From assembly GCA_016932715.1 (NCBI GenBank), contig JAFGCG010000052.1, positions 1 to 64,000 on the forward strand: 64,000 nt of DNA. The letters are read 5' to 3'. Shown one piece after another: positions 26,736-45,520 of the stretch; positions within the stretch are counted from its first letter, which is position 1; every line of letters starts with the position of its first letter. Origin of the DNA: Anaerolineales bacterium. GTDB taxonomy: Bacteria > Chloroflexota > Anaerolineae > Anaerolineales > Villigracilaceae. A program made the position numbers and the translations under genes. The notes beneath the pieces are model-generated. The model searched no databases, was not told the DNA's origin, and worked only from the letters and a program-made list of their open reading frames with translations.

Positions 26736-26743
26736 AAGACCTC

Positions 26744-28232: not shown

Positions 28233-29143
28233 AGCCAATTTTGTTCCTTCGCAGCGTCGCGCACAAGTCGAACCAGACCGGAGATCATCTCCGGTTCATC
28301 GTTCAGCATCTCGATGCGCTCCAGCCGAACGCCCAATGTCTGCGCAAGGCTTTGATAGACAACGTCGATGTCATAAAGAATCTCGACATGCTCACAGACA
28401 AAGCCAATTGGGCAGATCAACATATTCCGCTTGCCTTCGTCAGCAAGGCGATTGATCGGTTCCGACGCATCGGGACCCAGCCAGGGTTCGGTCGAGATGG
28501 CGGCAGATTGAAAGGCAAATTCATGCGGATGAGGACCCAGAAGTTTCATCACCCCGGCAACCGTCTCCCGCAATTGCTTTGGATATGGATCCTCCCATTC
28601 GAGAATGCGTTCCGGAAGGCTGTGCGCCGTAAAAATGATCGGGACATCGGCGCGCTCCGATTCAGGAAAACGTTCCAGCGCGCTCCGGACGCGCCCGGCA
28701 AGTGCATTCAAATACTCAGGAAGCAAATGCCAATCATCGATCCGGGCAACCTGGATGCCCAGGTTCGCCTCGTCGACCTTTTTGAAATAGACTTCGATGC
28801 TTATCCGCGAATAATGCGGCGCCATGACGATCCCAACCGCGCGGTCAATTCGCTGATTGCACATCTGAGTAAGAGCATCTTTAATGAACGGATGCCAGTG
28901 CTTCATGCCGACAAAAGCCTTGAAGTCCCCGCCTTGCGCGTTCAATGCTGATTCAAGCGCATCTGCCTGCGCCTGGGTCCGTTCGAGGATCGGCGAGCGT
29001 CCGCCAATTTCGCGGTAGCGTTCGCGCACCTCGTGAACGATCTCCGGCGAGGTGGGCCGATACCCACGCACATCCATGAGGTAGGGTTCAACTTCATCAA
29101 GATTGTCTGGACCGCCGTAAGCCATTACCAATAAACCGATCAT
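28229..29143 (-). CDS. hemH: ferrochelatase (coproporphyrin-type expected)
   Basis: Inserts ferrous iron into the porphyrin ring. Conserved IGLLVMAYGGP start, YFKKVDEANLG, IIFTAHSLPERILEW with the catalytic His, and CPIGFVCEHVEILYDIDV with the catalytic Glu. 304 residues from the ATG at 29143, chosen because ATGA overlaps the stop of the upstream DUF4491-like gene. An ATG at 29161 would add six residues. With HemQ in the same operon the likely substrate is coproporphyrin III. Confidence 0.94.
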   Translation of the reverse strand: MIGLLVMAYGGPDNLDEVEPYLMDVRGYRPTSPEIVHEVRERYREIGGRSPILERTQAQADALESALNAQGGDFKAFVGMKHWHPFIKDALTQMCNQRIDRAVGIVMAPHYSRISIEVYFKKVDEANLGIQVARIDDWHLLPEYLNALAGRVRSALERFPESERADVPIIFTAHSLPERILEWEDPYPKQLRETVAGVMKLLGPHPHEFAFQSAAISTEPWLGPDASEPINRLADEGKRNMLICPIGFVCEHVEILYDIDVVYQSLAQTLGVRLERIEMLNDEPEMISGLVRLVRDAAKEQNWL

Positions 29144-29472
29144 AGATGTGGAGCCTTCCATTTCCGAATTATTCTTGCCAGAGGCGGCAGGATCTTTTTA
29201 TCATTAAACGGATACCAGCCAATCTCAGCACGGACAGCCTGTTCTTTCAGCTCGGTCGAGCCCCAGAGGAGCGAGGCGCCAAACACACCCAGCAAAGCAG
29301 ATATCCAAAGATGATGCACGAACAGTGAAATAACAATCAGCAAAATGCCGAGTCCCATCACGTAGGGCCACCAGAGATAACCAAAATAGCGCTCCCCGCG
29401 GATGACCCAGATAAACCCCAGTCCAATAATGAAAAGTGTGGAAATGCCAAGTGCAAAGCCAAAGAAGTTCAT
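29140..29472 (-). CDS. DUF4491-like small membrane protein, copy B
   Basis: Unknown function. 110 residues with three hydrophobic segments, beginning MNFFGFALGISTLFIIGLG and ending in a soluble tail with ELKEQ...IGWYPFNDKK. That pattern matches my memory of the DUF4491 family. It is a paralogue of the next gene on the operon (similar start and similar SLLWGSTELKEQ/TLLWDALEFTRQ block). The stop overlaps hemH by ATGA, so it is translated with the haem genes. Its place suggests a link with haem or porphyrin handling at the membrane, which is inference. Confidence 0.6.
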   Translation of the reverse strand: MNFFGFALGISTLFIIGLGFIWVIRGERYFGYLWWPYVMGLGILLIVISLFVHHLWISALLGVFGASLLWGSTELKEQAVRAEIGWYPFNDKKILPPLARIIRKWKAPHL

Positions 29473-29490
29473 GATTGAGTATCCGAAATT

Positions 29491-29517
29491 CAGTAATCAG
29501 TCTCCAGTAATCAGTCT
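29491..29517. repeat. direct repeat CAGTAATCAGTCT, two copies
   Basis: CAGTAATCAGTCT at 29491-29503 and 29505-29517, one base apart, between the two DUF4491-like genes. The last codons of copy A (VRLITGD) are read from it on the minus strand. Confidence 0.7.
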
Positions 29518-29910
29518 TACAGCTTCAGTCTGAGAAACGGACCTGCCGATCGGATCGCGCTTTAGCATGTCAAGCGTCGTGGCGGAGGCGTATTCACGCA
29601 TAAACCGTGCATGCCGCGGGTTGTCCGGGTTGGCAGGCGCATGTCCCTTTTTGATGCGGTTCTGCTGGCGGGTAAACTCGAGCGCGTCCCATAAGAGGGT
29701 AATGCCGATAATGCCTAAGGCTGTCGAAAGTAAAAAGTTCAAAGTTGAGAGTGAGAGCCATTCAAACACAATTCCGACAAGGGCAAACAGAGTGCTCGGC
29801 AGCCAAATGGTCGGCGAGATGAATTCGATCTTCCGCACGGCGACATGCCCGAACCAGATGCTGAGGAACGTCGCCAGGGCGGAGACCAGACCGATAAAAT
29901 TAAGGCTCAC
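29497..29910 (-). CDS. DUF4491-like small membrane protein, copy A
   Basis: Unknown function. 137 residues, three hydrophobic segments after MSLNFIGLVSALATFLSIW, then a soluble tail with FTRQQNRIKKGHAPANPDNP, again as in DUF4491. A C-terminal stretch (REYASATTLDMLKRDPIG) extends beyond copy B. GTG start overlaps the hemE stop as GTGA. The last seven residues are encoded by a short direct repeat, so the natural end may be lost. Confidence 0.6.
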   Translation of the reverse strand: MSLNFIGLVSALATFLSIWFGHVAVRKIEFISPTIWLPSTLFALVGIVFEWLSLSTLNFLLSTALGIIGITLLWDALEFTRQQNRIKKGHAPANPDNPRHARFMREYASATTLDMLKRDPIGRSVSQTEAVRLITGD

Positions 29911-30986
29911 ACTTCCTCCCCGCTTCGACTTCGCTCCGCTCCGCTCAGCGCGAATGGAGGCCGGGAATATTCATGCACCATATCCACCACCGCCTTGACG
30001 TTGTCCACCGGCGTGTGCTGCAAAATGCCATGACCGAGGTTGAAGATGTGGCCCGGACGACCTGCCGCGCGACGCAAGATGTCCTGGACACGCGTCTGAA
30101 TTTTCGGCAGAGGCGCAAAGAGCAGCGCAGGGTCAAGATTCCCCTGAACGGCGACGTCGTCCCCAAGCAGAGCCCAGCCATCGTCCAGCGGGATGCGCCA
30201 ATCGAGGCCGATCACGTCTCCACCGGCGCGCTTCATCAAAGGGAGAAGGGTCGTTGTGTTCGTCCCAAAGTGGATGACAGGGACATTCTCCGCTTTGGCA
30301 GCCTGCAGGACTTTCTGTGAATAGGGCAAAACAAAACTCTCGTAATCCTGCGGGCTGAGGGCGCCGGCCCATGAATCGAAGATCTGCACAGCCTGCGCGC
30401 CGGCACGGATCTGCGCCACAAGATATTCAGCTAAAATGCCGGATAGTTTTTCCATCAGCATATGCCAGACTTCAGGTGCGGAATACATCATCGTTTTCGT
30501 CTTGAGGAACTCACGCGACGAGCCGCCTTCGATGATGTAGGAGGCGACCGTGAACGGCGCGCCGCAAAAACCGATCAGTGGAACCCCTTTCAGTTCGCCG
30601 CGCAGGATGCGGATCGCCTCCAGCACGTAGCCCAGGTCGGTCTCCGCGTCGACGGGATTCAGCGCTCGGACATCTTCCAGGCTGCGGACCGGCTTGCCGA
30701 TCACAGGTCCCTCTCCTTTGGCAAACTCCAGTCCAAGTCCGAGCGGGATGACCGGCAGAAGGATATCGGCAAACAGGATCGCGGCGTCCACGCCAAGGAG
30801 ACGCACCGGTTGCAGCGTCACTTCCGCAGCAAGTTCAGGCTGATAGCAAATCTCCAGCAGGGAATATTTCTCGCGGATCGCGCGGTACTCGGGCATGTAA
30901 CGCCCAGCCTGACGCATGAACCAGACGGGCGTCACATCGACCGGCTTGCGGCGGCAGGCACGCAAAAAGCGATCGTTTATTTCCAT
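29907..30986 (-). CDS. hemE: uroporphyrinogen decarboxylase
   Basis: Converts uroporphyrinogen III to coproporphyrinogen III. The substrate-binding signature VWFMRQAGRYMPEYR is at residues 20-35, with IGFCGAPFTVASYIIEGG and FNLGHGILQHTPVDN further on. 359 residues. The family normally ends shortly after VVDMVHEYSR. Here 17 more residues (PPFALSGAERSRSGEEV) come from a dispersed repeat sequence at 29922-29953. It overlaps hemQ by 10 bases. Confidence 0.96.
   Translation of the reverse strand: MEINDRFLRACRRKPVDVTPVWFMRQAGRYMPEYRAIREKYSLLEICYQPELAAEVTLQPVRLLGVDAAILFADILLPVIPLGLGLEFAKGEGPVIGKPVRSLEDVRALNPVDAETDLGYVLEAIRILRGELKGVPLIGFCGAPFTVASYIIEGGSSREFLKTKTMMYSAPEVWHMLMEKLSGILAEYLVAQIRAGAQAVQIFDSWAGALSPQDYESFVLPYSQKVLQAAKAENVPVIHFGTNTTTLLPLMKRAGGDVIGLDWRIPLDDGWALLGDDVAVQGNLDPALLFAPLPKIQTRVQDILRRAAGRPGHIFNLGHGILQHTPVDNVKAVVDMVHEYSRPPFALSGAERSRSGEEV
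29922..29953. repeat. dispersed repeat forming the 3' end of hemE
   Basis: CTTCGACTTCGCTCCGCT (29922-29939) and CCGCTCAGCGCGAA (29940-29953) recur in closely similar form at 40390-40430 (CTTCGTCTTCACTGCGTTCC, then GCTCAGCGCGAAGG) and 43080-43108. In hemE it is translated. Confidence 0.6.
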
Positions 30987-31669
30987 AAGCGCAGAGTCTC
31001 CTCAGCGGGGTGATAGATCGCAGTATGGAGAGGCGTATCACGCAGTGTGTGACGGCGAGCTTCGGTATCACGCAGTTCGTTCACCAGATCGGAAAACCGG
31101 ACGAGATCATCGGTTTCGTAAACGACGACGAATTCCTGATTCTGCAAACCAAAGGAATACAACAACAACTGGCTGATGTCTTCGTACTGCTTGCCAATGC
31201 GGATATGCTCATTCATCATCCCCTGGCGCGCCTCGCGGCTCATCAGATACCAGTCCACCGTTTTGCTAAAGGGATAAATAATCAGATAAGGTCGGCGAGT
31301 CTCTGCAAGCGGATCGATCTCCTGCTTCGAACGCGCCTTCGAATATTGCGATGGCCGCGTGAAGCCCCAAAGCGAATCTTTCAAATCGATCCACTGTCGA
31401 TAGGGATTGTTCGCTGCGGCGAATTTCTCAAAAAACCGGGCGGCATCCAGTTTGTCATCCGCAGGGAGAGCCGACCAGACGATCAAGTCTATGTCCGATT
31501 CGGTGGCTTGCAGGATGTCGACTCGCTGCGCGGCAGCACATAAGCCGTTCAGCCAGCCTTTGTGAAACTCTTCGCGTTCTTTCGATGATAACGACCAATA
31601 AGGTTCCCTGAAGGCAACCAACGAATAATGATTCAAAGTCCGGTGAGTCTCTTCCATTTTATGATCCAT
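30977..31669 (-). CDS. hemQ: coproheme decarboxylase HemQ (chlorite dismutase-like)
   Basis: Last enzyme of the coproporphyrin route: decarboxylates iron-coproporphyrin (coproheme) to haem b. The C-terminal half holds the haem-ligand His in MMNEHIRIGKQY and the DLVRFSDLVNELRDTEARRH block of the HemQ/Cld fold. 230 residues from the ATG at 31669, which overlaps the radical SAM gene by 11 bases. An ATG at 31657 would give 226. The open frame extends upstream to 31846, but that part lies inside the neighbour. It takes the place of HemN/HemF in the pathway. Confidence 0.9.
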   Translation of the reverse strand: MDHKMEETHRTLNHYSLVAFREPYWSLSSKEREEFHKGWLNGLCAAAQRVDILQATESDIDLIVWSALPADDKLDAARFFEKFAAANNPYRQWIDLKDSLWGFTRPSQYSKARSKQEIDPLAETRRPYLIIYPFSKTVDWYLMSREARQGMMNEHIRIGKQYEDISQLLLYSFGLQNQEFVVVYETDDLVRFSDLVNELRDTEARRHTLRDTPLHTAIYHPAEETLRLWK

Positions 31670-32813
31670 TAAATTGTTTCGGAATATAAGCACAGGCCGG
31701 GTCGGTTTCCAGATAGTCGCCCGTAACGCCGTAAGCACGTCCGCGCTGACCGCCGCAGACGTCACGGAACTCACAGATTCCGCAGCGACCCTTGATCTTT
31801 TCGGGATCGCGCAGATCCATGAACAATTTCGAGTGACGATAGACATCTACAACATCGGAAGTGCGCACATCGCCGGCCGTGAGCGGTAAAAATCCTGAAG
31901 GCTGGATCTCGCCAATGTGTGAGATGAACAGGAACCCGTTCCCATCGTTCACACCCTTGGTAGGACGATTCAGTCCATCGGCGTACTGAAACCCCGCACC
32001 CTGAAATGTGACGGGCTTCCCGTCCGCTTCGAGGCGCTTACGCTGGATGGCGACGCGGCGGTACATCGGCGCAGCAGTAGCCTTGATGTCGAACGGCGCG
32101 CTCTGGGAAAGGTCATAGAGCCAGTTGAAAACCTTCTCGTGCTGCTCGGGACTGATCATGTTTTCGATCTGGGCTCGTCCGGTGGGCACCAGGAAAAACA
32201 CTGACCATTGCACAGCGTTCACTTCCTGGATGAATGGGATCATTTCATGCAGGATGTCCACGTTGTGTTTGGAGACCGTAGTATTGACCTGCACACTCAA
32301 GCCCACGTCTTGCGCGCGATGCAAAATATCCATGGTACGCTGCCAGGAACCGGGCACCTGCCGGAAGTTGTCATGGATTTCAGGGCGAGGCGCATCCAGG
32401 CTCAGCGCGATCCGGCGAATGCCCGCTTCACGGACTTTCTCGAGTCGTTCTTTCGTTGGCAGGGCCGTCGCGGTTGGTGTGAGGGAACAACGCAATCCCT
32501 GCCCGGTGGCATACGCGATCAACTCGAACAGATCCGGTCTCATCATCGGGTCGCCGCCCGTGAAGACCAGGATGGGGTGATTGCCGAATGCAGCCAGGCG
32601 TTCGATCAAGGCTTTGGCTTCCGCCGTGGAGAGCTCACGCGGGTCACGCTTGTGTTGGGCGTCGGCGCGGCAGTGCACGCACGCGTAGGCGCAGGCGCGC
32701 GTCACTTCCCAGGCAATGGTAAAGGGCGCCAGGTCGAAGTCCGCGTGAATCATGCGTTCGTTGCTGGCGTTGCGTTCGGCAGCAGCGCGTTCACTAAGGT
32801 TCGATGAAGTCAT
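31659..32813 (-). CDS. radical SAM/SPASM protein of the haem operon (TIGR04053-like)
   Basis: 384 residues. The radical SAM cluster motif CAYACVHC near residue 45 (Cx3Cx2C) is followed by a GGDPMMR motif. A SPASM-type C-terminus with CGICEFRDVCGG and DPACAYIP binds auxiliary iron-sulphur cluster(s). It resembles the NirJ/AhbD/PqqE group, and from memory the TIGR04053 family that often sits beside hemB. The reaction is unknown. A porphyrin-related role is inferred from the operon. Start at 32813 chosen by the AGGAG site 6 bases upstream. Confidence 0.8.
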   Translation of the reverse strand: MTSSNLSERAAAERNASNERMIHADFDLAPFTIAWEVTRACAYACVHCRADAQHKRDPRELSTAEAKALIERLAAFGNHPILVFTGGDPMMRPDLFELIAYATGQGLRCSLTPTATALPTKERLEKVREAGIRRIALSLDAPRPEIHDNFRQVPGSWQRTMDILHRAQDVGLSVQVNTTVSKHNVDILHEMIPFIQEVNAVQWSVFFLVPTGRAQIENMISPEQHEKVFNWLYDLSQSAPFDIKATAAPMYRRVAIQRKRLEADGKPVTFQGAGFQYADGLNRPTKGVNDGNGFLFISHIGEIQPSGFLPLTAGDVRTSDVVDVYRHSKLFMDLRDPEKIKGRCGICEFRDVCGGQRGRAYGVTGDYLETDPACAYIPKQFNGS

Positions 32814-32833
32814 AAAATCTCCTAACATTCAAC

Positions 32834-32942
32834 ATGTCGTTGCGAGCGAAGCGAAGCAATCTCATCTTTGTAGCTTACTTGAGATTGCTTCGTCGCCTGG
32901 TCTCGACGGAACGTCTCGACCGACGGCTCCTCGCAACGACAT
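32834..32942. repeat. palindromic repeat element (GTTGCGAG family), copy 1
   Basis: Outer arms ATGTCGTTGCGAG (32834-32846) and CTCGCAACGACAT (32930-32942), inner arms AAGCAATCTC (32854-32863) and GAGATTGCTT (32881-32890). It fills the gap between hemB and the radical SAM gene. Closely related elements (consensus GTCATTGCGAG) are widely dispersed in bacterial genomes, from memory. A half-copy is inside hemD and another copy at 40329-40444. Confidence 0.85.
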
Positions 32943-32947
32943 AGCAA

Positions 32948-34039
32948 TTACTTCAGCCACTTCGCTGCATCCAGGGCGTGATAGGTCAAGATCAGATCGG
33001 CGCCCGCCCGCTTGATCGCGGTAAGCGTTTCGAGCGTGACCTTCACTTCGTCGATCCAACCGTTTGCCGCCGCGGCTTTGATCATCGCGTATTCGCCGCT
33101 GACGTTGTATGCCGCCATCGGCAATTCGGGAAAGGCATCCTTCACCACGCGGATCACGTCCAGGTACGCCAGGGCCGGCTTGACCATCAACATGTCGGCG
33201 CCTTCGTCAATATCCAAGGCGGCTTCGCGCAACGCCTCGCGCACATTCGCCGGGTCCATCTGGTGTGACTTCCTGTCGCCAAACTTCGGCGCCCCCTGCG
33301 CGGCTTCGCGGAACGGACCGTAAAATGACGAGGCATATTTCACCGCATACGAAAGGATCGGCAGATTTTCATAACCCGCGTCATCCAATGCGCCGCGGAT
33401 TGCGCCCACCATCCCATCCAGCATGCCCGAGGGTGCGACAATATCCGCGCCGCATTGTGCATGGGAGACCGCCACCTTTGCAAGCACATCCAGTGTGGGA
33501 TCATTCAAGACATAGCCTTCAGGCAGGTTCATGTGAAAATGCTCACCTGTATTCAAGATCCCGCAATGACCGTGATCGGTGTACTCGCACAGGCACACGT
33601 CCGTTACCACGACCATCTCAGGAAGTTCCTTTTTGATGAGGCAGATCGCCTGCTGGACAACTCCATCTTCCGCGAAATTCTCAAGCCCGATCGGATCTTT
33701 CTCTTTGGGAATACCGAACAGGATGACCCCGTTCACGCCGGACCTCAGGGCTGCTTCCGCTTCCCGGACCGCTTCCTCCACCGACAGTTGGCAGATGCCC
33801 GGCATCGAGCGGATCTCGCTGCGCCCCGGTCCATGCCGCACGAACAATGGATAGATAAAATCGCGTGGGTTGAGTTCAGTTTCGCGCACCATGGCACGTA
33901 ACGCAGGCGTCGCGCGTAAGCGCCTCGGACGATGCGCGATTTTCGATTTCCGATTTACGACACCTGCACTTGCGCCAGGTGCAAGTGTTGGCGATTTACG
34001 ATTTGCGATTAACGATTCCCGATTTTCAAGCAGAGTCAT
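32948..34039 (-). CDS. hemB: 5-aminolevulinate dehydratase (porphobilinogen synthase) with repeat-derived N-terminus
   Basis: Condenses two 5-aminolevulinates to porphobilinogen. Zinc-type metal site [13 protein letters not shown], Schiff-base Lys in [11 protein letters not shown] and second Lys in [16 protein letters not shown]. The family body begins at [18 protein letters not shown], about residue 37. The first 36 residues ([17 protein letters not shown] and on) are the translation of an intergenic-type repeat. The start at 34039 is real-looking: GGAGGTG lies just upstream and ATGA overlaps the hemD stop. 363 residues in all. Confidence 0.94.
33936..34030. repeat. AATCG-type repeat inserted in the 5' end of hemB
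   Basis: Runs of CGATTTNCGATT units (33936-33960 and 33990-34025) flank a palindrome (CACTTGCGCC...GGTGCAAGTG, about 33966-33988). The whole block is open in the hemB frame and separates the start codon from the conserved body. Confidence 0.75.
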
Positions 34040-34782
34040 GACACCTCCAAATTACGAATAACTTCAATTAATCCTTCCGTTGTATATTCCCTGGCAACTA
34101 CCAAATCGACCAGCCCATCCTCGCGCGCCGCCTGTTCGGTGATGGGACCAATACAGGCGAACAAGGGATTTCCTGGCAGGCGCAACGGATCCAGTCCGCT
34201 TTGCCGCGCGATCGCCATGAAGTTCTGCACAGTCGACGGACTGGTTAAAGTGACAATATCCACACCCGATTGCAGCGCCGCGAGTCCCTCGGGCTCAGGC
34301 TGAGCAGGTAGTGTTTGATAGACAGCAACTTCATGTGGAATACCACCCGCTTCTTTAATCGCTTCAGGCAGTGCCTTGCGCGCAATTTCGGCGCGCGGCA
34401 GCAGGACCCACTTGCCGCGCACATCTCCCAGCCCGGGCAAAATCGCCTCGGCGACATACTCATCGGGGACAAAGTCGAGCGTGATGCCGCGCCTACGCAG
34501 TGCCTCCGCTGTCTTCGGGCCAATCGCGGCAACCTTGGGAGATTGCTTTGTCGCTCCGCTCCTCGCAACGATATCAGACACAACCTCTACTGCATTGACA
34601 GAGGTGAACACAATCCAGTCATAGCGTTCCAGTTTCGCCAGGGCGCGTTCCAGCGCGACATTATTTTCAATTGGTCGGATTTCAATCACCGGGAAAAAGA
34701 TGGGTTCAAAGCCTGCCGCGCGCAGCTTCCCGGCAAAGTCGTCGGCTTGCGCGCGCGGGCGAGTGATCAGGATCCGTTTCAT
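34036..34782 (-). CDS. hemD: uroporphyrinogen-III synthase with internal repeat peptide
   Basis: Cyclises hydroxymethylbilane to uroporphyrinogen III. The 248 residues show the two-domain HemD pattern: [64 protein letters not shown] and [14 protein letters not shown]. Between [10 protein letters not shown] and KVAAIGPKT the peptide [12 protein letters not shown] is read from a half-copy of the GTTGCGAG palindromic element. It lies in a variable loop where an insertion may be tolerated. ATGA overlaps couple it to hemC and hemB. Confidence 0.9.
34537..34574. repeat. half-copy of the GTTGCGAG palindromic element inside hemD
   Basis: GAGATTGCTTTGTCGCTCCG (34539-34558) followed by CTCCTCGCAACGATAT (34559-34574) matches the right arm pattern of the element at 32881-32942. 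It stays in the hemD reading frame. Confidence 0.75.
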
Positions 34783-35681
34783 TTCATTACACCCGCCGCA
34801 AGGATTTCACCTGCGCCCTGCGAGATGGCTTTCTGTGCAAGTTCGTTTCCCAATGCCAGCGCGTCCATGCCTTCACCGGTCACTTTGATGGCTTTCCTCC
34901 CATCCTCTGAAATCACCAACCCCGTCAAACTGATCGCTGCGGCGTACGCCGCCACCGGCACCGCGCACCCCCCGCCGAGTCCGCTCAGGAAGGCGCGCTC
35001 GGCCGTGACCGCTCTGCGCGCCGATTCGTCCTCCAGCGCCGCGAGCAGGCTGAGGGTCGTCTGATCCGTGGATCGGCATTGAACCGCCAAAGCGCCCTGT
35101 CCGGGTGCAGGCAGCATGACATCCAGCGGCAGCCATTCCGTCACATGCTGATCCAGACCCAGACGGGTGAGACCTGCGCCCGCCAAAATGATCGCATCGT
35201 ACTGACCCTCCAACGCTTTACGCAGCCGCGTATCCACATTCCCGCGTAACGATTCGATTTTCACATCCGGGCGAACTGCCAGAAGCTGTGCCGCGCGCCG
35301 TAAACTCGATGTGCCGACAACAGCATTTTTGGGAAGTGCAGCAAGCGTAAACCCTGCGCGGGAAATCAGCGCATCGCGTACTTCCGCGCGCACAGGGACG
35401 CAGCCAATCGTCAGACCCTCGGGGTTTTCGACAGGCAGGTCTTTCAGGGAGTGGACCGCGCAATGCACGGCACCGGAAAGCAGTTCATTTTCAAGTTCCT
35501 GTGTGAATAGACCCTTGCCCCCGATTTCAGGCAAAGGCTTATCGAGTATCCTGTCGCCCTGCGTGCTGATCACTTTTTCTTCGCAAAGGAGATCGGGATG
35601 AATTCCCTGCAAGGCGTTGATCACCCACCGGGTTTGCCAGCGAGCAAGGGCAGAGGGGCGAGTTGCAAAAACCAATTTCAT
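34779..35681 (-). CDS. hemC: porphobilinogen deaminase (hydroxymethylbilane synthase)
   Basis: Joins four porphobilinogens into hydroxymethylbilane using a dipyrromethane cofactor. VGTSSLRRAAQLLA and SLRGNVDTRLRKA (substrate-binding Arg residues), AIILAGAGLTRLG, and the cofactor Cys in GLGGGCAVPVAAYA are present. 300 residues, usual length. ATGA overlap with hemD. A 33-base gap to hemA is partly repeat. Confidence 0.96.
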   Translation of the reverse strand: MKLVFATRPSALARWQTRWVINALQGIHPDLLCEEKVISTQGDRILDKPLPEIGGKGLFTQELENELLSGAVHCAVHSLKDLPVENPEGLTIGCVPVRAEVRDALISRAGFTLAALPKNAVVGTSSLRRAAQLLAVRPDVKIESLRGNVDTRLRKALEGQYDAIILAGAGLTRLGLDQHVTEWLPLDVMLPAPGQGALAVQCRSTDQTTLSLLAALEDESARRAVTAERAFLSGLGGGCAVPVAAYAAAISLTGLVISEDGRKAIKVTGEGMDALALGNELAQKAISQGAGEILAAGVMK

Positions 35682-35692
35682 CTTTACCTGTC

Positions 35693-35713
35693 TACTTGAT
35701 ACCTGTTTACTTT
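35693..35713. repeat. TACCTGTCTAC-type repeat between hemC and hemA
   Basis: TGTCTACTTGATACCTGTTTAC belongs to the same family of ACCTGTTTAC/GTAGACAGGT words found at 42546, 60168 and 62470. It provides the sequence just upstream of hemC. Confidence 0.55.
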
Positions 35714-35714
35714 C

Positions 35715-36995
35715 TCAGTCTGCGGCGGTGGATGATAGATCGAAGAGTTTGCGCACCAAGGCCGCATACTCAGGCGCGCGCTGCGAGGCTGCTTCCGCAC
35801 GGAGATGGCGGGTGGGATGATCGAGCAGCTTCTGGACGAGTGATTGCGTGAGCGCTTCGATCCGTTCGCGCTCGACATCTGTCAAGCCGGGCATACGCCG
35901 GAGAGTTTTTTCCAACTCCGCAGCACGGATCGTCTCTGCCCGCTGGCGAATATGCGCGATGATCGGCAGCATCTCCAGCGAGTTTAGATATTCTTCAAAA
36001 CCGGAAAGCTCCTCCTCCAGGATCCGTTTCACATGCGGCACTTCGTCCATGCGCCGGGTCAGCGAATCTTCAAGCTGTGCGTTCAACCCATCAATATCAA
36101 AAAGTTCGACCTGCGGGATATCCAGGCAGTCCGGGTCAATATCGCGCGGCACAGCAATATCGATCAGCACCAGGAGGCGCGCGCGGCGGGAGCGCATCGC
36201 CTCCCTGACCATTTTTGCATCGACCACAATATGCGGCGCGCCGGTGGAGGAGATCAAAATATCCGCCTCGCACAGGGCTTGCTGGAGAAACTCGAAGGTC
36301 GCGGCTTCCGCGCCCCAGCGCTGCGCCAGTTCCTGGGCGCGTTCCAATGTGCGGTTGATGACCCGGATCTTTTCCACCCCGCGCTTGCGCAAGGCTTCGA
36401 CGGTCAGCTCAGCCATTTCGCCTGCGCCCAGCACGAGCACGCTGGCAGTTTTGATGTGACCCAGCGTCTTCTCCGCCACCGATGCCGCCAGCGACGATAC
36501 CGAGGCGGGATTGCGGCTGATGGCGGTTTCCGTGCGCGCACGCTTCCCGGCATGGATCGCAGCCTGGAAGAGTCGATTCAGCGTAGGTCCCGCGGCCTCC
36601 TGACCGCGCGCCAGCTCGAGGGCACGCGTGATCTGTCCCAAAATCTGCGGCTCGCCGATGACGAGTGAGTCCAGCCCGGCTGCCACATCGAACAAATGAC
36701 GGGCCGCCTCCAGGTCCTCGAAACGATAGGAATAGGGATGGAAGTCGTGGACGGGCAGGCCGCGCGCATCCGACAAAAAAGCCTCCAGTTCGGCAAATGC
36801 CGATGGATTGGAGGCCGCATAAATCTCAGTTCGATTACAGGTGGAAACAATGACCAGCTCTGTCAGCGAGGAAGGCATGCGCCCGCACGCCAGGCGGGAT
36901 AACGAAATACGGACCTGTTCCTCGCTGAACGCCAGACGTTCACGGAGATGAACAGGTGCCGTTGTGTGATTGAGCCCAAGGGAAAGTATATGCAT
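35715..36995 (-). CDS. hemA: glutamyl-tRNA reductase
   Basis: First committed enzyme of C5-pathway tetrapyrrole synthesis: reduces glutamyl-tRNA to glutamate-1-semialdehyde. LSLGLNHTTAPVHLRERLAF at the start, catalytic Cys in VIVSTCNRTEIYA, NADPH site VLVLGAGEMAELTVEALR, and the C-terminal dimerisation helix region. 426 residues from the ATG at 36995, which gives the normal family start. The open frame to 37055 is not used. First gene of the haem operon. An operator-like palindrome covers its likely -10 box. Confidence 0.96.
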   Translation of the reverse strand: MHILSLGLNHTTAPVHLRERLAFSEEQVRISLSRLACGRMPSSLTELVIVSTCNRTEIYAASNPSAFAELEAFLSDARGLPVHDFHPYSYRFEDLEAARHLFDVAAGLDSLVIGEPQILGQITRALELARGQEAAGPTLNRLFQAAIHAGKRARTETAISRNPASVSSLAASVAEKTLGHIKTASVLVLGAGEMAELTVEALRKRGVEKIRVINRTLERAQELAQRWGAEAATFEFLQQALCEADILISSTGAPHIVVDAKMVREAMRSRRARLLVLIDIAVPRDIDPDCLDIPQVELFDIDGLNAQLEDSLTRRMDEVPHVKRILEEELSGFEEYLNSLEMLPIIAHIRQRAETIRAAELEKTLRRMPGLTDVERERIEALTQSLVQKLLDHPTRHLRAEAASQRAPEYAALVRKLFDLSSTAAD

Positions 36996-37018
36996 TGGCG
37001 GCTGCCGCACTTTGTAAC

Positions 37019-37035
37019 TTGTTTCACTATAACAA
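37019..37035 (-). promoter_or_regulatory. palindrome over a -10-like box upstream of hemA
   Basis: On the minus strand TTGTTATAGTGAAACAA has arms TTGTT/AACAA and contains TATAGT, a possible -10 box about 30 bases before hemA. It could be an operator. The similarity to Rex or other known boxes is too weak to name a regulator. Confidence 0.3.
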
Positions 37036-37181
37036 GGAACCTTGCGGCAGACCATTCAGGATTTTTCAGGTTTGGGTTAGGAAACGCTAATATGAAGCTA
37101 AGAATTTGCTCATTTACAAAACAAATGTCATTGGAACGAGGGACAGATGTCGCTGCTGACCGATCCACGGACCTTACAGCT

Positions 37182-39965: not shown

Positions 39966-40310
39966 TTACTTCATTCCCGCAAGGACGCGTGTAATCACAG
40001 CATCCAATAAAGCCTCATCCACCTGACTGTTGACCTGCCTCAACACCGCGGCTTTGACCTTCTGCCTGAGCTCCAAATCAGCCGTGCTCGCGCGCGGGGA
40101 CTCTTTGGGATAGGCAGCCTGCATGTTGACCGAAGGACTTGGGGTTGCGCGCGGCGAGGCTTGCTCACGGCGCTGGATTTTGATCCCAAGTTTCATGGCG
40201 CGCTCGACCGCCAGGTCTGTCAGCAGGACGTTGTCGTCAACCGCCAGGCTGTCGACGCCGCGCCTCTTCAAATCGTCAATATCACGCTCGGTATAAAAGA
40301 TCTTTGCCAT
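39966..40310 (-). CDS. small microcompartment-associated protein with EutQ-like N-terminus and encapsulation-peptide-like tail
   Basis: Not a named family. 114 residues in three parts. Residues 1-47 (FYTERDIDDLKRRGVDSL, DDNVLLTDLA) align with the N-terminus of the EutQ protein encoded at 42.5 kb (FTAEDIRRL, DDILTHEA). A Pro/Ser/Ala-rich linker covers about 48-78. The tail has two predicted helices, and the last, DEALLDAVITRVLAGMK, has the hydrophobic spacing of metabolosome encapsulation peptides such as that of PduD. No cupin domain. ATG at 40310 chosen after TTAGGAT. Last gene of the microcompartment run. Confidence 0.6.
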   Translation of the reverse strand: MAKIFYTERDIDDLKRRGVDSLAVDDNVLLTDLAVERAMKLGIKIQRREQASPRATPSPSVNMQAAYPKESPRASTADLELRQKVKAAVLRQVNSQVDEALLDAVITRVLAGMK

Positions 40311-40328
40311 AAGCATATCCTAAACCAC

Positions 40329-40444
40329 ATGTCGTTGCGAGGGAACGAAGTGACCGAAGCAATCTCCACTTCTGCAAGGAGATTGCCTCGCCTGCGCTTC
40401 GTCTTCACTGCGTTCCGCTCAGCGCGAAGGGCTCGCAACAACAT
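40329..40444. repeat. palindromic repeat element (GTTGCGAG family), copy 2
   Basis: Outer arms ATGTCGTTGCGAG and CTCGCAACAACAT, inner GCAATCTCC/GGAGATTGC. It fills the gap between the tandem BMC gene and the small BMC-associated gene, and its right part contains the CGTTCCGCTCAGCGCGAAGG word shared with hemE. Confidence 0.85.
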
Positions 40445-40449
40445 ATCGT

Positions 40450-41079
40450 TTATTTTTCCGACCTGCCCTCGAGTCCTTCCAGTGCTTTGACCGCCGCGTT
40501 GCGCGCGGTCAGGATTTCAGCCTCCGAGCCAGAGAGCCACATGCGACCAAAGCGCCCAACGGATGACACATGCAATATTTTGATGTTGGCGCCTTTCTCC
40601 GCTTCATTGCAGGCGTAGTTGATATACGCGGCTGGCGCGCACTCCAGCACAAGCATCGTCTCGCCCGGCACGAGCATCGAACCGCGCCGGAAACGATTCA
40701 GCAACTGCGCCTGGTAGGGATCGATGTTCGTAATGATCTGCACGGAGGCGATCAGCGGCTTGATGCGCTCCGAGGTCTGCAACCCCAGTCGCTCCAGCAC
40801 GATGCGCCCGGCTTCGAGCACCTCAGACTGCGCGCGCGAATGGACTTCGAACATACCAAATTCGCGTTCCACGATCTGCGCGCCCGGCTTGGCTTCCGTC
40901 GATTTGACCGCGATGTCCACCAGGCGGAAGACTTCATTGCCCGGCGCAACTTCGATGTACAGCGAAGCCATGCCCTCCGTTGGAAGGTCACCCTGCGTGA
41001 TCGTGCCCACGAACGCCGCGTACTGCGGCTGCATGCGGTCGAGATAAGAATAGACACGTAATGAGAATTGATCAGCCAT
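40450..41079 (-). CDS. tandem BMC-domain shell protein, CcmP/CsoS1D-like
   Basis: Microcompartment shell protein with two fused BMC domains (BMC-T), 209 residues. The first domain carries LRVYSYLDRMQPQYAAFVGT and GMASLYIEVAPGNEVFRLVD followed by IVEREFGMFEVHS, which to my recollection is the CcmP/CsoS1D pattern. The second carries MLVLECAPAAYINYACNEAEKG. CcmP-type trimers can stack into double layers with a gated large pore. The locus also encodes EutL, a second, different BMC-T. The family assignment within BMC-T is from memory. Confidence 0.75.
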   Translation of the reverse strand: MADQFSLRVYSYLDRMQPQYAAFVGTITQGDLPTEGMASLYIEVAPGNEVFRLVDIAVKSTEAKPGAQIVEREFGMFEVHSRAQSEVLEAGRIVLERLGLQTSERIKPLIASVQIITNIDPYQAQLLNRFRRGSMLVPGETMLVLECAPAAYINYACNEAEKGANIKILHVSSVGRFGRMWLSGSEAEILTARNAAVKALEGLEGRSEK

Positions 41080-41091
41080 AATGCTCCAATG

Positions 41092-41140
41092 TGTAGTAGC
41101 GACTTTAGTCGCTTTTATAACGACTGAAGTCGTTACTACA
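41092..41140. repeat. palindrome TGTAGTAGCGAC...GTCGTTACTACA
   Basis: Two 20-base arms with two mismatches around TTTTATAA-like centre, between the tandem BMC gene and eutJ. The AGCGACTTTAGTCGC / CGACTGAAGTCGTTAC words mark another repeat family. Confidence 0.8.
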
Positions 41141-41142
41141 GT

Positions 41143-41994
41143 TTAATTATTCATCGCAATCCCAAGCGGCGTCACAAACAACGGTTTGCCGGGAAGAACA
41201 GCTTCCACACCGGTGATTTCCTGGATCACCTGGTCCATGCCGGGATACGCGCACGTGCCGCCGACCAGATAGATTCGTTCCACTTTGTGTCCGGCAAGAT
41301 GACGCCGGACAATCGTGCCGACCTTTTCCATCACCGGACGAATGAGGGGAAACAGTCGGGTCTGCTCCTTTGGGTCTGTCTTCATCGCTTCGGCTTCCTC
41401 GAACGTTAATCCTGTTGAACCCGCAATGACCAGGGAAAAGTGCGTTCCGCCGGTCGGCTCGTCAGCAGTGTACACCACTTTACCCTTCCTGAAGACCGCG
41501 ATCCCGGTCGTCCCGCCGCCGACGTCAACAATCGCGCCATCCTTGATCTGCAGAACGTTGTTTGCGGCAGTCGGCTCGTCGATCAGGCCCGTGCAATCCA
41601 GCCCGGCGCCATGTAAGACGTTGGCGGTTGCGCGCACTTCCGCCTGCGGCACGCCCGGCGGATAGCCTGTCGAGGCGGATTTTAACTCGAAGCCAAGTCG
41701 TTCCTCGACTTGTGATTTCATCCTGCGCAGCAAATCCACGGCACCGATGAAATCCACGACCAAACCATCCCGCACGATCTCGGCAAATTGATACGTGCCC
41801 GCGATCGGTTGATAGTTCTCATCGAGAACAGCCAGCACAGTGTACGCTGTACCCAAATCCACGCCGACATGGACAGAGTCGCGCGAGGGGCGCGCTGAAT
41901 TGGGGTCCGCGCCTCGGCCATTCGCTCCGGACATGATCCGGTCGGTTCGAGTCAGCAGGTCGGTAAGATTCGGATTCACAGGCTCACTTATCAT
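41143..41994 (-). CDS. eutJ: ethanolamine utilisation protein EutJ-like (Hsp70/actin-fold ATPase)
   Basis: Chaperone-like ATPase found in Eut-type microcompartment operons, role not established. Actin-fold motifs VHVGVDLGTAYTVLAVLD, GAIVDVGGGTTGIAVF and IYLVGGTCAYPGMDQVI. 283 residues from the ATG at 41994, 11 bases inside the end of eutQ. A frame extension to 42048 is not used. The first 40 residues (with MSGANGRG...DSVHVGV) are longer than the ATPase core needs. Confidence 0.88.
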   Translation of the reverse strand: MISEPVNPNLTDLLTRTDRIMSGANGRGADPNSARPSRDSVHVGVDLGTAYTVLAVLDENYQPIAGTYQFAEIVRDGLVVDFIGAVDLLRRMKSQVEERLGFELKSASTGYPPGVPQAEVRATANVLHGAGLDCTGLIDEPTAANNVLQIKDGAIVDVGGGTTGIAVFRKGKVVYTADEPTGGTHFSLVIAGSTGLTFEEAEAMKTDPKEQTRLFPLIRPVMEKVGTIVRRHLAGHKVERIYLVGGTCAYPGMDQVIQEITGVEAVLPGKPLFVTPLGIAMNN

Positions 41995-42535
41995 TCCGGT
42001 CCACAGGAAACACCACATACACAAAGCGCGTCCAGTTCGGCGTGCCAAAGGTGATGCTCGATCCTTTGGGGATGTAGATCACATCGCCCGTTTTTCCGCG
42101 CACCTGCTCGCTGCCGCGCGTGATCACCAGTTCGCCTTCGAGTACGATGTCGATCTCGTCATAGGTCAGGGTCCATTGCATCTCGCCTTTGTCGAGCGAC
42201 ATGTACCCTGCGCCCATCGGGGAGCGATCCTGCGTCACGACGACATTTTTCAGCCAGACGTTCGTGCCCGGCGTGGTCATGCCCGCCAGGAAAGGCTCGA
42301 TCTGGACATTTCCCATGCGTACGACTTTCAACGGCGGCAAGTTCGAGACAACAGGCGGCGACTCTTTTCTCAAGCCGACAGTTGGTCCCGTTTCGCGGAT
42401 CACTTTCACGCCCAGGGCATAGGCGGTATCGGCAGCTTCATGCGTGAGGATATCGTCGTATCCCAGCACGAGAGTTTCGGTCTTCGCGCGCGCGAGCCGA
42501 CGGATATCTTCAGCGGTGAACAGTTGACGCGGCAT
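41984..42535 (-). CDS. eutQ: EutQ-like cupin protein
   Basis: EutQ has been linked to acetate kinase activity and to compartment assembly in Salmonella (established elsewhere, not testable here). 183 residues. The N-terminal module FTAEDIRRLARAKTETLVLG is followed by a linker and a cupin barrel (YMSLDKGEMQWTLTYDEID, VLEGELVI, GKTGDVIYIPKGSSI). The N-terminal module recurs in the small protein at 39966-40310. No Shine-Dalgarno sequence precedes the ATG; repeat DNA begins within ten bases upstream. Confidence 0.85.
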   Translation of the reverse strand: MPRQLFTAEDIRRLARAKTETLVLGYDDILTHEAADTAYALGVKVIRETGPTVGLRKESPPVVSNLPPLKVVRMGNVQIEPFLAGMTTPGTNVWLKNVVVTQDRSPMGAGYMSLDKGEMQWTLTYDEIDIVLEGELVITRGSEQVRGKTGDVIYIPKGSSITFGTPNWTRFVYVVFPVDRNDK

Positions 42536-42545
42536 GAGGAGGTGG

Positions 42546-42638
42546 CAGGTAGACAGGTATCAGGTAGACACGTAAACAGGTAAACACATAGGATGTGCCT
42601 CCTTGTTTACTTGGCTACTTGTCTACGTTTCTACTTGC
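42546..42638. repeat. GTAGACAGGTAAAC-type repeat between BMC-H and eutQ
   Basis: Words AGGTAGACAGGTATCAGG and ACACGTAAACAGGTAAACAC, then the inverse TTGTTTACTTGGCTACTTGT. The stop codon of the BMC-H gene (TAG) is the first codon in this repeat. Confidence 0.7.
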
Positions 42639-42951
42639 TGCCCCGTCCGCCGAAGGAACCCTTTGTGCTCTGCGGCAGGATCATCTCCACGTCCGTATGC
42701 GGGCGCGGGATGACATGCACGGAGGCGAGTTCACCGACGCGCTTGGCAGCCGCGGCGCCTGCATCGGTCGCGGCCTTGACTGCGCCGACGTCCCCGCGCA
42801 CCATCACGGTCACGTAGCCGCCGCCGACATATTCACTGCCGATCAAGGTTACATTCGCAGCCTTGACCATCGCGTCTGCGGCTTCGATCGCGCCGATCAG
42901 GCCCTTGGTCTCAACCATTCCCAGGGCTATCATAGAAACATCTACGGGCAT
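42631..42951 (-). CDS. eutM: BMC-H shell hexamer protein (EutM/PduA type)
   Basis: Main shell building block, one BMC domain forming hexameric tiles. [40 protein letters not shown] and [11 protein letters not shown] are the canonical BMC-H blocks. 106 residues from the ATG at 42951, which is 8 bases after AAGGAGA. The ATG at 42957 sits too close to that site. Only one BMC-H gene is present in the locus. The tail [14 protein letters not shown] runs up to a repeat that supplies the stop codon. Confidence 0.93.
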
Positions 42952-43014
42952 AGTCATACTCTCCTTTTGGTTTCTGGTTTCCGATTGGACATCGGATGTC
43001 TAACTTCTCGCGTC

Positions 43015-43108
43015 GAGCGGAGGGTTGAGGCGCACAGCGCTGAAACCTGTAGACGAGACGCCGGTCCAACAGCGCTTCGTCTTCGCCTACGGCTCCGCTC
43101 AGCGCGAG
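43015..43108. repeat. repeat-rich gap between eutE and BMC-H
   Basis: Contains CGCGTCGAGCGGAGG, an imperfect inverted repeat around CGCTGAAACCTG, and GCTCCGCTCAGCGCGAGG, related to words in hemE and at 40390-40430. No open frame or promoter of note. Confidence 0.5.
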
Positions 43109-43109
43109 G

Positions 43110-44618
43110 TTATTTCTTCAACTCCAACAACACCTTCCTGACGATTTCCTCCACCTGCGCATCCATGCTGGATGAGGTGGTCGCAGGCGCGGAATGGGAA
43201 CTGCCGGTGAACAACCGCCTCTGCGCAGGATCATCCGTCGAGCCGGGCGCGAAGGCGGCCTCCGGTGCCGTGCGGATCTCATAGGCAAGCTTCTTAATAT
43301 TGTACAGGTGATGCACAGTGATGTTATCGCCTGTGATCGCGCCACCCACGCCGCCCGAGCCAAGGGTCATCGAAGGCATGACGCCGGTTGTGTATCCGGT
43401 CGTTCCGAGCGTGCCAAACGTATTGACGACGATGCGAAAGACAGGTTTCTCCAGGCCAAAGCGCATGATCACATTTTCATCCCGGGCATGGATGACCAGG
43501 GAATGACCGCGTCCACCGTAATTGATCAGCTCGATGCAGCGCTCGCAGCCTGCCTCCCAGCCATCCGCTTCGTACCAGCCAAGGACTGTTGTGAGCTTTT
43601 CGCCTGAGAGCGGCTCTTCCGTTCCCACGCCATTAAGTTTCACCACCAGAATACGCGCCCAATCCGGGACAGTGAATCCGTACATCTGCGCGAGCTGCTG
43701 AGGGCTTCGTCCCACTGCCTTGGGATTTGGCAGATGCCCCACGAACAAATTCTTTGCCAGGATCTGCTTGATGTTGTCATCGACAAAATACGCGCCTTCT
43801 GCCTTCATCAATTCTTCAAGCTTTGCCGCGATCGGTCGGTCCGCGACGACGGCCTGCTCCGTCGCGCAAATGACAGAATGGTCAAAAGCCTTCGAGGCGA
43901 CGATATATTTTGCCGCGCGCCCCACATCCGCCGAACGATCCACGTACGCCGGGACGTTGCCGGGGCCGACACCATAAGCAGGTTTGCCGACCGAATGTGC
44001 AGCGCGCACCATGTCCGAGCCGCCCGTGGCAAGGATCAACGCCACATACTTGTGCCTCATCAGTTCCTGCGTCCCCTGCAGGGAAACCTTCGTCATACAG
44101 GAGATCAGCCCCTTTGGCATACCGGCGCGTTCCCCGGCTTCAGCCATGATACGGATGGTCTCGGCGCAGCACTTCGCCGCGAAGGGATGCGGTGCAATGA
44201 TGATCGCATTCCTGGCTTTCACGGCGATCAACGTCTTATACATGGTCGTCGAAGTGGGATTCGTGCTGGGCGTCAGCGCGGCAACGACGCCCATCGGCCA
44301 GGCAATGTCATAGGTCTTCCTGACCGGGTCCTCACAAATGACGCCAACGGTTGGAATATCCCTGATGGCTTCCCACAACAATTGCGACGACAATAAATTC
44401 TTCAACGTCTTATGTTCGGGAACGCCATAGCCCGTTTCTTCTGTCGCCATTTTCCCAAGCGTGACCGCCGCGTCGGCGGCAGCCTGTGCCATTGCCGCGC
44501 AGATCCGGTCCACTTCGGCTTGCGTGGCGCCGAGGAATTTTCGCTGCGCCTCGCGCGCCTGCGTAGCCAGCGTGCGGGCTTCCTGAATGGATTGAAGATC
44601 GTTGTCGAATTCTGCCAT
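43110..44618 (-). CDS. eutE: EutE-type CoA-acylating aldehyde dehydrogenase with C-terminal encapsulation-like peptide
   Basis: Oxidises acetaldehyde (or a similar aldehyde) to the acyl-CoA inside the microcompartment. Catalytic Cys in KAFDHSVICATEQAVV, NAD region TPSTNPTSTTMYKTLIAVKA, and the C-terminal TVLGWYEADGWEAGCERC and LEKPVFRIVVNTFGTLG. The 502 residues exceed a typical EutE because about 40 C-terminal residues follow the catalytic domain: a Ser/Pro/Ala linker, then DAQVEEIVRKVLLELKK, which fits the amphipathic pattern of encapsulation peptides (usually N-terminal in PduP). It is the only enzyme with a clear reaction in the locus. Confidence 0.93.
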   Translation of the reverse strand: MAEFDNDLQSIQEARTLATQAREAQRKFLGATQAEVDRICAAMAQAAADAAVTLGKMATEETGYGVPEHKTLKNLLSSQLLWEAIRDIPTVGVICEDPVRKTYDIAWPMGVVAALTPSTNPTSTTMYKTLIAVKARNAIIIAPHPFAAKCCAETIRIMAEAGERAGMPKGLISCMTKVSLQGTQELMRHKYVALILATGGSDMVRAAHSVGKPAYGVGPGNVPAYVDRSADVGRAAKYIVASKAFDHSVICATEQAVVADRPIAAKLEELMKAEGAYFVDDNIKQILAKNLFVGHLPNPKAVGRSPQQLAQMYGFTVPDWARILVVKLNGVGTEEPLSGEKLTTVLGWYEADGWEAGCERCIELINYGGRGHSLVIHARDENVIMRFGLEKPVFRIVVNTFGTLGTTGYTTGVMPSMTLGSGGVGGAITGDNITVHHLYNIKKLAYEIRTAPEAAFAPGSTDDPAQRRLFTGSSHSAPATTSSSMDAQVEEIVRKVLLELKK

Positions 44619-44632
44619 AAGAAAACCTTTTT

Positions 44633-44678
44633 GGAGTCAGCCAGCTTGCTGGCGACGGGAAGCAAGCTCCCCGACTCC
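44633..44678 (+). repeat. 46-base palindromic repeat, copy downstream of eutL
   Basis: Begins GGAGTCAGCCAGCTTGCTGG and ends CTCCCCGACTCC. It is an inverted copy of the repeat at 45355-45400 (37 of 46 positions match by my hand alignment) and lies 5 bases from the eutL stop. Confidence 0.8.
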
Positions 44679-44683
44679 ATAGT

Positions 44684-45340
44684 TTAGTAATTGAACGGAT
44701 GACTTGCCACCTCTAGCACTTTATTTTGAAACGCCGCGGCGGCAGCCGCACAGGCCGGCTGGTCACCGGTCAGCATCGCGCCCATGTAATTCGTTTCGGA
44801 GGGCGGCATGGTCAGCGAAACAAAGGTCACAGCTGCCGCTTTCAGCGCAGCGTCCAACGCCACCAAACCCTCATTCGGCGGCGCGATCAGGTAGGCAATT
44901 GGCGACCCAGGCGGGATGTTGCAAACCTTCGAAAGATAAGAGCCTGTCCTGGAGATCACATGCGGGAAAAACGCAACGGAATCGTCCTCGTTGGCTGAAT
45001 ACCAGATTGCCTGAGTCTTCATATAGTTGAGCGCGGCATTCAAACCCGCTCTGACCTCGGCGGGATCTGGTCCCGCCAAAATTGCCATGATCTCCCCCGA
45101 GAGTTTTCCCGAGGTATGTTTCGCACCCGCGTAGAACGAACGCGCATAGACAACTTCCACGTCTGCCATTTTGGTCGCTTCATCTATAGACACGTATGTG
45201 GCATCGTCGTTATCCACGCTCAGCAAGCCAATGGAACGCTGTCCAGGAGTCAGCCTGAGCTGCTCCGCGAGATTGCGGTCTACTTGAGGGATCAATTGGA
45301 CAGCCAGAGGAGTTGCATAGATGGGGTCGAGAATTGCCAT
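44684..45340 (-). CDS. eutL: EutL-type tandem BMC shell protein
   Basis: Trimeric pore-forming shell protein with two circularly permuted BMC domains. It matches EutL almost end to end: LRLTPGQRSIGLLSVDNDDA, TYVSIDEATKMADVEVVYAR, ILAGPDPAEVRAGLNA, HVISRTGSYLSKVCNIPPG, YLIAPPNEGLVALDAALKAA and PPSETNYMGAMLTGDQPAC. 218 residues, as in E. coli. First gene of the microcompartment run, 65 bases before eutE. It is closely flanked by inverted copies of a 46-base repeat. Confidence 0.95.
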   Translation of the reverse strand: MAILDPIYATPLAVQLIPQVDRNLAEQLRLTPGQRSIGLLSVDNDDATYVSIDEATKMADVEVVYARSFYAGAKHTSGKLSGEIMAILAGPDPAEVRAGLNAALNYMKTQAIWYSANEDDSVAFFPHVISRTGSYLSKVCNIPPGSPIAYLIAPPNEGLVALDAALKAAAVTFVSLTMPPSETNYMGAMLTGDQPACAAAAAAFQNKVLEVASHPFNY

Positions 45341-45354
45341 AATTTCTCTCTTTT

Positions 45355-45400
45355 GGAGTCGAGGAGCCTGCTCCTCACCGCCAGCAAGCTGTCGGACGCC
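45355..45400 (-). repeat. 46-base palindromic repeat, copy upstream of eutL
   Basis: Begins GGAGTCGAGGAGCCTGCTCC and ends CAAGCTGTCGGACGCC. It is an inverted partner of 44633-44678, 15 bases upstream of the eutL start. Confidence 0.8.
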
Positions 45401-45424
45401 ATAATAACCTTGCCAGCCTCAACT

Positions 45425-45520
45425 TTACACCCGAAACCTGTCGCCGACATCGTTCATCACACCGAGGCACGCGTACCTGATGAAGAACGGCGTCCCAAAT
45501 GTGATGCCTGCGTTCCGCAT
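45425..45520 (-). pseudogene. short ORF resembling the tail of EutQ, possible remnant
   Basis: 31 codons upstream of eutL in the same direction, beginning MRNAGITFGTPFFIRYA. EutQ of this locus has SSITFGTPNWTRFVY at its cupin end. The shared ITFGTP and spacing suggest a decayed EutQ 3' end, but the match is short and may be chance. No ribosome site. Confidence 0.25.

Follow-up and report, generated by a model that had tools for sequence, protein, structure and literature searches.

The 64,000-nucleotide stretch analysed here (hereafter the window; positions 1 to 64,000 of contig JAFGCG010000052.1 from Anaerolineales bacterium assembly GCA_016932715.1) carries, at 39966-45340, a minus-strand set of seven bacterial microcompartment (BMC) genes without a vertex protein (BMC-P) or a signature enzyme. 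The content of the genome, the corresponding loci of relatives and the gene trees suggest, with a probability that we put at about 85%, that this set forms the main half of a single metabolosome that processes acetaldehyde and is of the sugar-phosphate-utilisation (SPU) kind, whose satellite half lies on contigs C68 and C67 of the same genome, and that the main locus has lost eutABC, leaving a scar of eutC. A reading of the window made from its sequence only had offered two explanations, namely, that other regions of the genome carry what the locus lacks or that the locus is a compartment of a new type, supplied with aldehyde from the cytosol; the former is supported, the latter is not.

The seven-gene locus and the eutC scar

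All seven open reading frames (ORFs) are real and their family names hold, based on scans against Pfam and NCBIfam models with the cut-offs of the models and on matches to solved structures in the PDB, which agree with the families given in the sequence-only reading for seven adjacent minus-strand genes. In the direction of transcription, the first is EutL (44684..45340), a pore protein, here retained without EutABC; it exceeds the cut-offs of TIGR04502 (304 bits, cut-off 300) and NF011934 and matches solved EutL structures. It is followed by an EutE-type acylating aldehyde dehydrogenase, AldH (43110..44618), which scores 557 bits against the acylating acetaldehyde dehydrogenase model TIGR02518, under its cut-off of 620, and has a C-terminal extension resembling an encapsulation peptide. 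Next come an EutM-like shell hexamer protein, BMC-H (42631..42957; PF00936, 100.5 bits, cut-off 24.5; EutM model NF012018, 133.4 bits, cut-off 133), EutQ with its N-terminal segment and cupin domain (41984..42535; PF06249, 98 bits, cut-off 21; NF012001, 116 bits, under the cut-off of 193) and EutJ (41143..42048; NF011660, 365 bits, cut-off 182; TIGR02529, 324 bits, over the cut-off). Since the model match of EutJ begins at residue 53, the listed TTG start is probably too early. The CcmP/CsoS1D-like tandem BMC-T (40450..41079) has no Pfam match at 0.001 and reaches 260 bits with NF053796, under the equivalog cut-off of 340, and it matches solved CcmP (E 8.7e-64) and Haliangium shell proteins (PDB 4ht5, 5lsr and the HO shell 5v74-5v76). 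CcmP-type BMC-T proteins are double-layered, and by homology we take the one in the window to be so too. The last gene encodes a small protein of 116 aa (39966..40316). No BMC-P, lyase, aldolase or PduL is among the seven, and the intergenic stretches leave too little room for one, as the sequence-only reading had also stated; the ORF list and family scans rule out a hidden lyase.

Just outside this range, and overlooked in the sequence-only reading, the minus strand at 45400..45520, between eutL and fumC, holds a remnant of eutC. It consists of an internal eutC stretch followed by the last eutC codons, with ~215 bp between them gone. Over 71 bp it is 84.5% identical to eutC of three congeners (blastn E 9e-17 against a ten-locus database; tblastn, 30 aa at 60%), and its alignment score is 163, whereas 200 mononucleotide shuffles gave at most 102. 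Of the three eutABC products, EutB was the one searched for across the bin, and the search gave no match, which rules out an EutB elsewhere in it.

The scan for relatives of EutL gave 66 loci, with EutB and/or EutC on 64 of the stretches. Eight loci have no EutB; six of these end near EutL but show EutC, and two (L027 and L070) show neither. A gene-order comparison with other Chloroflexota, proposed in the sequence-only reading, recovered the window's order in nine loci (L009, L012, L013, L014, L016-L019 and L022), where it stands behind the lyase genes in the full arrangement BMC-P-eutA-eutB-eutC-eutL-aldH-BMC-H-eutQ-eutJ-BMC-T-small; EutA, EutB and EutC of L009 were checked against Pfam. In other Chloroflexota loci (e.g. 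L025, L028, L031, L032 and L037) only eutABC-eutL is present, as a free-standing EUT module. Because the scar is present, EutB is without a match and relatives have eutABC in front of the same genes, we conclude that the eutABC part of the window locus was deleted and that EutL, EutQ and EutJ were kept. Two of the EutL loci, L029 and L030, are identical inverted contig ends of 11,672 bases in Levilinea saccharolytica NZ_LGCM01000042.1, each with a eutC match and eutL; the contig either carries a genuine terminal inverted repeat of this size or was misassembled.

The small protein, listed as unknown in the sequence-only reading, indeed has no Pfam or NCBIfam match, nor a solved relative (only an aspartokinase chain at E 0.55). 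Overlooked in that reading was the kinship of its N-terminus with that of EutQ. A profile built from 21 small-protein ORFs, none of them EutQ, reaches EutQ N-termini among 2290 ORFs (best E 2.5e-7; 11 matches at 1e-4 or better) as well as one other protein, L066:13301-14197, without a family assignment, and in the reverse direction 12 of the 21 are reached from EutQ. Based on these matches in both directions, the protein consists of an EutQ-N-like segment, a variable linker and a conserved C-terminal segment. In most of those Anaerolineae rows of the alignment that have a long linker, the linker contains S-x-SVN, followed by AAYP in several members; this stretch could be a short binding motif. 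The window also holds, at 25452-37055, a minus-strand gene run that by eye resembles haem biosynthesis.

The satellite locus on contigs C68 and C67

The bin (G000) is a metagenome-assembled genome (MAG) of 4.94 Mb in 195 contigs, 94.67% complete with 2% contamination. It contains three BMC-P genes over the PF03319 cut-off, all outside the window: P1 at the end of C68, and P2 and P3 at the end of C67. On C68, deoC and rpiB adjoin P1. DeoC scores 298 bits with TIGR00126 (cut-off 117) and 70 bits with PF01791 (cut-off 23.8), RpiB 151 bits with TIGR01120 (cut-off 139) and 181 bits with PF02502, and both have N-terminal extensions, the Pfam domain starting at residue 81 in DeoC and at residue 46 in RpiB. 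rpiB and deoC with extensions, together with three BMC-P, correspond to the published signature of the SPU metabolosome, and the genome as a whole contains the SPU traits of DeoC-type aldolase, RpiB-type isomerase, BMC-P, BMC-H and acylating aldehyde dehydrogenase. The parts missing from the window are thus elsewhere in the genome, as one of the two earlier explanations had it, and the finding named there as speaking against a new compartment type, a second locus supplying those parts, is what C68 and C67 provide.

C67 further encodes a protein of the RidA family (PF01042) and, at a distance of 2.8 kb from its BMC-P genes, an L-lactate dehydrogenase (TIGR01771, 341 bits, cut-off 304). After P1, the last bases of C68 give a start codon and a few codons resembling the BMC-H that follows P1 in the congener G009, so another BMC-H and another small protein are probably encoded in the gap between C68 and C67; no second small-protein copy was found in the assembled genome. 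Neither C67 nor the 20 kb of C68 examined contains a match to aldH, and PF00936 matches nothing in the bin outside the window (the model does not see BMC-T). The complementarity is clear: the satellite stretches examined here and the eight fetched from congeners show no match to the aldehyde dehydrogenase, and BMC-P and signature enzyme are both missing from the window locus.

Distribution among relatives and gene trees

A survey of the genome and 120 relatives (n=121) with four queries, some of the counts being made by hand, found BMC-P in 50/121, PF00936 in 49/121 and EutB in 22/121 genomes. An extended DeoC stands beside BMC-P in at least 43 of the 121 and together with EutB in at least 15 (hand count); among the matches listed, EutB occurs without such a DeoC in 7 genomes, one of which (G118) has no BMC-P. 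Extended DeoC was also found in 14 of 16 genomes chosen among those behind the 66 EutL loci (query start at residue 4 or earlier). A clear EutL, recognised by paired partial PF00936 matches, is present in 20 genomes, not counting extra, unassignable PF00936 matches in G082 and G107. EutB accompanies it in 18, the exceptions being the genome studied here and G095, which may be a second case of orphan EutL. Two G095 contigs (L091 on C33 and L092 on C299) share their first 127 bases, a BMC-H fragment, which adjoins EutL on one and aldH-P1-DeoC-RpiB on the other.

Within the genus (18 genomes), G006, G009, G010, G012, G013 and G014 are dual, with both a DeoC satellite and EutB; G017 has EutB only; and G002, G004, G011, G016 and the genome studied here have the DeoC satellite without EutB. 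The same split is seen on single contigs, with the two loci ~0.7 Mb apart in G012 (one contig) and 0.4 Mb apart in G016 (C1). G016 and G011 carry aldH-BMC-H-eutQ-eutJ-BMC-T in the neighbourhood, marked by genes that by eye resemble those for trigger factor, HAD and rlmN, where G012 has these genes behind BMC-P-eutABC-eutL. In all eight satellite loci fetched, of 10 congeners with a satellite, aldH has no match and a small-protein paralog lies between the BMC-P genes P1 and P2, the position that here is the contig gap. In the satellites of G006 (L080) and G009 (L088), P1 and the small protein are separated by an additional BMC-H, whose DNA is ~80% identical to the G006 main-locus BMC-H in the case of G006 and to the window BMC-H in that of G009. 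One contig of Anaerolineales Hainich-H52-bin129-1 (L071) has SPU and EUT parts side by side: the end of DeoC, a transporter, EutA, a permease, antitoxin- and PIN-like ORFs, EutB, EutC and EutL (ORFs other than DeoC and Eut named by eye).

Unsplit SPU operons also occur. The run RpiB-DeoC-P1-aldH-BMC-H-EutJ-BMC-T-small-P2-P3 is found in Levilinea saccharolytica KIBI-1 (L133) and in a MAG (L135), and L134 has the same run with no match to EutJ. In the trees, these unsplit operons are joined by the satellite copies of P1 (UFBoot 82) and of the small protein (98), and P1 of the congeners' main loci falls with Rectinema and Holophagaceae loci that carry EutABC (83). The aldehyde dehydrogenase tree does not repeat this grouping, and in the BMC-H tree one satellite copy departs from it at very low support; the main locus may therefore have been either a whole EUT3-like locus or an SPU locus that received an EUT module. 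Movement of an EUT module into an SPU locus is proposed in the catalogue of microcompartment loci, in the passages that treat such modules (PMC8217296).

A proposed metabolosome encoded in two halves

The passages of the catalogue on these types (Sutter et al. 2021, PMC8217296) already describe SPU, its SPU6 subtype in Anaerolineae, EUT modules as SPU6 satellites and a form in which SPU6 and EUT3 are fused; consequently, the window locus is not a new compartment type. Judging from gene set, class of relatives and trees, SPU6 is the subtype that it is most like. As described there (PMC8217296), SPU6 shares with the present genome DeoC (pfam01791), RpiB (pfam02502), acylating aldehyde dehydrogenase, tandem BMC-T and BMC-P, the bacterial class (by the record titles of relatives) and EUT modules as satellites, with one fused form. 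It differs in that here the signature enzymes and all BMC-P found lie in the satellite, and the main locus keeps EutL, EutQ and EutJ after losing eutABC with a scar. The tandem BMC-T in an EUT-like locus, seen here by NF053796 and PDB matches, is an EUT3 trait, no other EUT type having BMC-T(dp) in the catalogue's account of EUT loci (PMC8217296). Relatives with the window's order do carry eutABC along with tandem BMC-T, whereas this bin has no EutB match, only a scar of eutC and no BMC-P in the locus, and so does not show the EutABC trait of EUT3. The Levilinea operon (L133) has the core parts in one run; the genome studied here has inner and outer parts in two loci, and P1 and the small protein of the congeners' main loci come from another lineage than those of Levilinea. 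The HO microcompartment of Haliangium ochraceum likewise has three BMC-P, one BMC-H and tandem BMC-T and, in some genomes, an aldolase with BMC-P in a satellite, but no eutABC scar or orphan EutL is reported for it in the parts of PMC8217296 and PMC4207490 that deal with HO.

In the proposed metabolosome, deoxyribose-5-phosphate would enter a shell built from both loci, in which DeoC, whose products are acetaldehyde and glyceraldehyde-3-phosphate (PMC4207490, PMC8217296), would release acetaldehyde. The dehydrogenase of the window would convert it to acetyl-CoA and NADH, and RpiB would handle pentose phosphates. The facets would be made of BMC-H, the CcmP-like BMC-T and EutL from the window, and the vertices closed by the three BMC-P from C68 and C67. 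We infer encapsulation, one shared shell, the flux and recycling of CoA and NAD, as well as the deep origin of the main locus; the lactate dehydrogenase of C67 is only a candidate for cofactor recycling. Among 22 termini of 11 proteins, each compared with 500 shuffles, the N-termini of DeoC (0.02) and RpiB (0.012) are amphipathic. As to history, an ancestral operon BMC-P-eutABC-eutL-aldH-BMC-H-eutQ-eutJ-BMC-T-small, EUT3-like in content, would have lost BMC-P and eutABC down to the eutC scar, and the satellite looks like an SPU operon from which aldH and BMC-T are missing. Given what each lacks, each locus would now need the other. A bolder form of this scenario makes two crippled loci of different compartment types obligate partners, with EUT3-like facets and dehydrogenase, SPU-type vertices and DeoC/RpiB, and a retained EutL that now perhaps passes sugar phosphates or cofactors. 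We hold it tentatively, at somewhat less than an even chance, having lowered our estimate because no link between the main loci and EUT3-like loci emerges from the aldehyde dehydrogenase tree.

Several observations weigh against the SPU-kind metabolosome split over two loci. The MAG is fragmented, and eutABC might sit on unassembled DNA. C67, C68 and C96 are linked by binning and kinship to G009 only, and the order of C68 and C67 comes from congeners rather than from the assembly. G009 is nonetheless the nearest congener for C96 (fumC 91%), C68 (DeoC 86%) and C67 (P2 93%, P3 87%), which argues against mis-binning, and in the DeoC-RpiB-P1 tree the genome groups with G009 (support 77), its place in the EutL tree having support of 53 or less. 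PduL (PF06130), part of a complete metabolosome core and already noted as lacking, has no match in the bin; there is one Pta-domain match, a 764-aa frame at C160, but a family scan of that stretch gave nothing at E 1e-10. In the tree relevant to the EUT3 aldehyde dehydrogenase clade, main loci join the SPU-type locus of G095 (62) instead of EUT3-like loci, and the Levilinea enzyme joins Rectinema/Holophagaceae (93). The BMC-H tree puts one satellite copy (G009) among main-locus copies (supports 11-26), and the EutJ tree, which has a wrong ORF for Rectinema, was not used. A third terminus at 0.02 or less in the shuffling test is the C-terminus of lactate dehydrogenase (0.018), and that of the aldehyde dehydrogenase is not significant (0.124). 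BMC-P is missing altogether from six of the other 17 genomes in the genus (G001, G003, G005, G007, G008 and G015), and the satellite-only congeners G011 and G016 branch near dual ones (supports 83).

Three other explanations were weighed. That the seven genes alone form a vertex-less shell oxidising an aldehyde made in the cytosol fits the absence of BMC-P and signature enzyme from the window itself, but is contradicted by the three BMC-P, DeoC and RpiB on C68/C67, by congeners in which this satellite occurs together with main-locus genes like those of the window and by the SPU/SPU6 type being in print in the catalogue's SPU entries (PMC8217296); the amphipathic N-terminal extensions of DeoC and RpiB may also speak against supply from the cytosol, and we regard this explanation as highly improbable. 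Quite unlikely, in our estimate, is a dying ethanolamine locus that decays after loss of eutABC while the DeoC satellite works without it or not at all. Decay would account for the scar and for the terminal EutL branch of 0.086, longer than in close dual congeners (0.009-0.033, although those have near sisters in the tree). Yet that branch does not exceed the one of L010 (0.093), which has EutB and EutC. The reading frames of all seven genes are intact, with matches in relatives that span almost their full length, and the only PF00936 shell protein of the bin, and the only aldH in the regions searched, are those of the window.

The remaining explanation, an assembly chimera, would have the 3' end of a complete EUT operon falsely joined to fumC, with BMC-P-eutABC in reality upstream of eutL. 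A MAG of 195 contigs invites such suspicion, and neither ppc nor EutL adjoins fumC in any of the 12 congener loci compared around that gene (20 fetched, one being the window's own; flanks 1.5 kb or less at contig ends), which provide no empty site either. A simple join was rejected on the scar alignment, since a single false join would not give both an internal deletion and the true end of eutC, and EutB is without a match in the whole bin; we consider a chimera unlikely.

New here are the eutC scar, the orphan EutL, the complementary gaps of two loci that would now depend on each other and four states in one genus; we found no report of an EutL-kept, eutC-scarred state in the open-access literature searched (supplements not covered). 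The split SPU-kind metabolosome predicts that shell proteins of the two loci assemble together, and an unsplit form is available in the isolate Levilinea saccharolytica. Loci that look incomplete are easily filed as of unknown function, and here such a locus would be half of a known organelle. The eutC scar would mark an intermediate stage at which one signature enzyme gives way to another, within a genus that shows ethanolamine only, dual, sugar-phosphate only, and sugar-phosphate only with an ethanolamine scar. If the obligate partnership of the two loci is true, the function of a compartment may change through the swap of a cargo module under a lasting shell.

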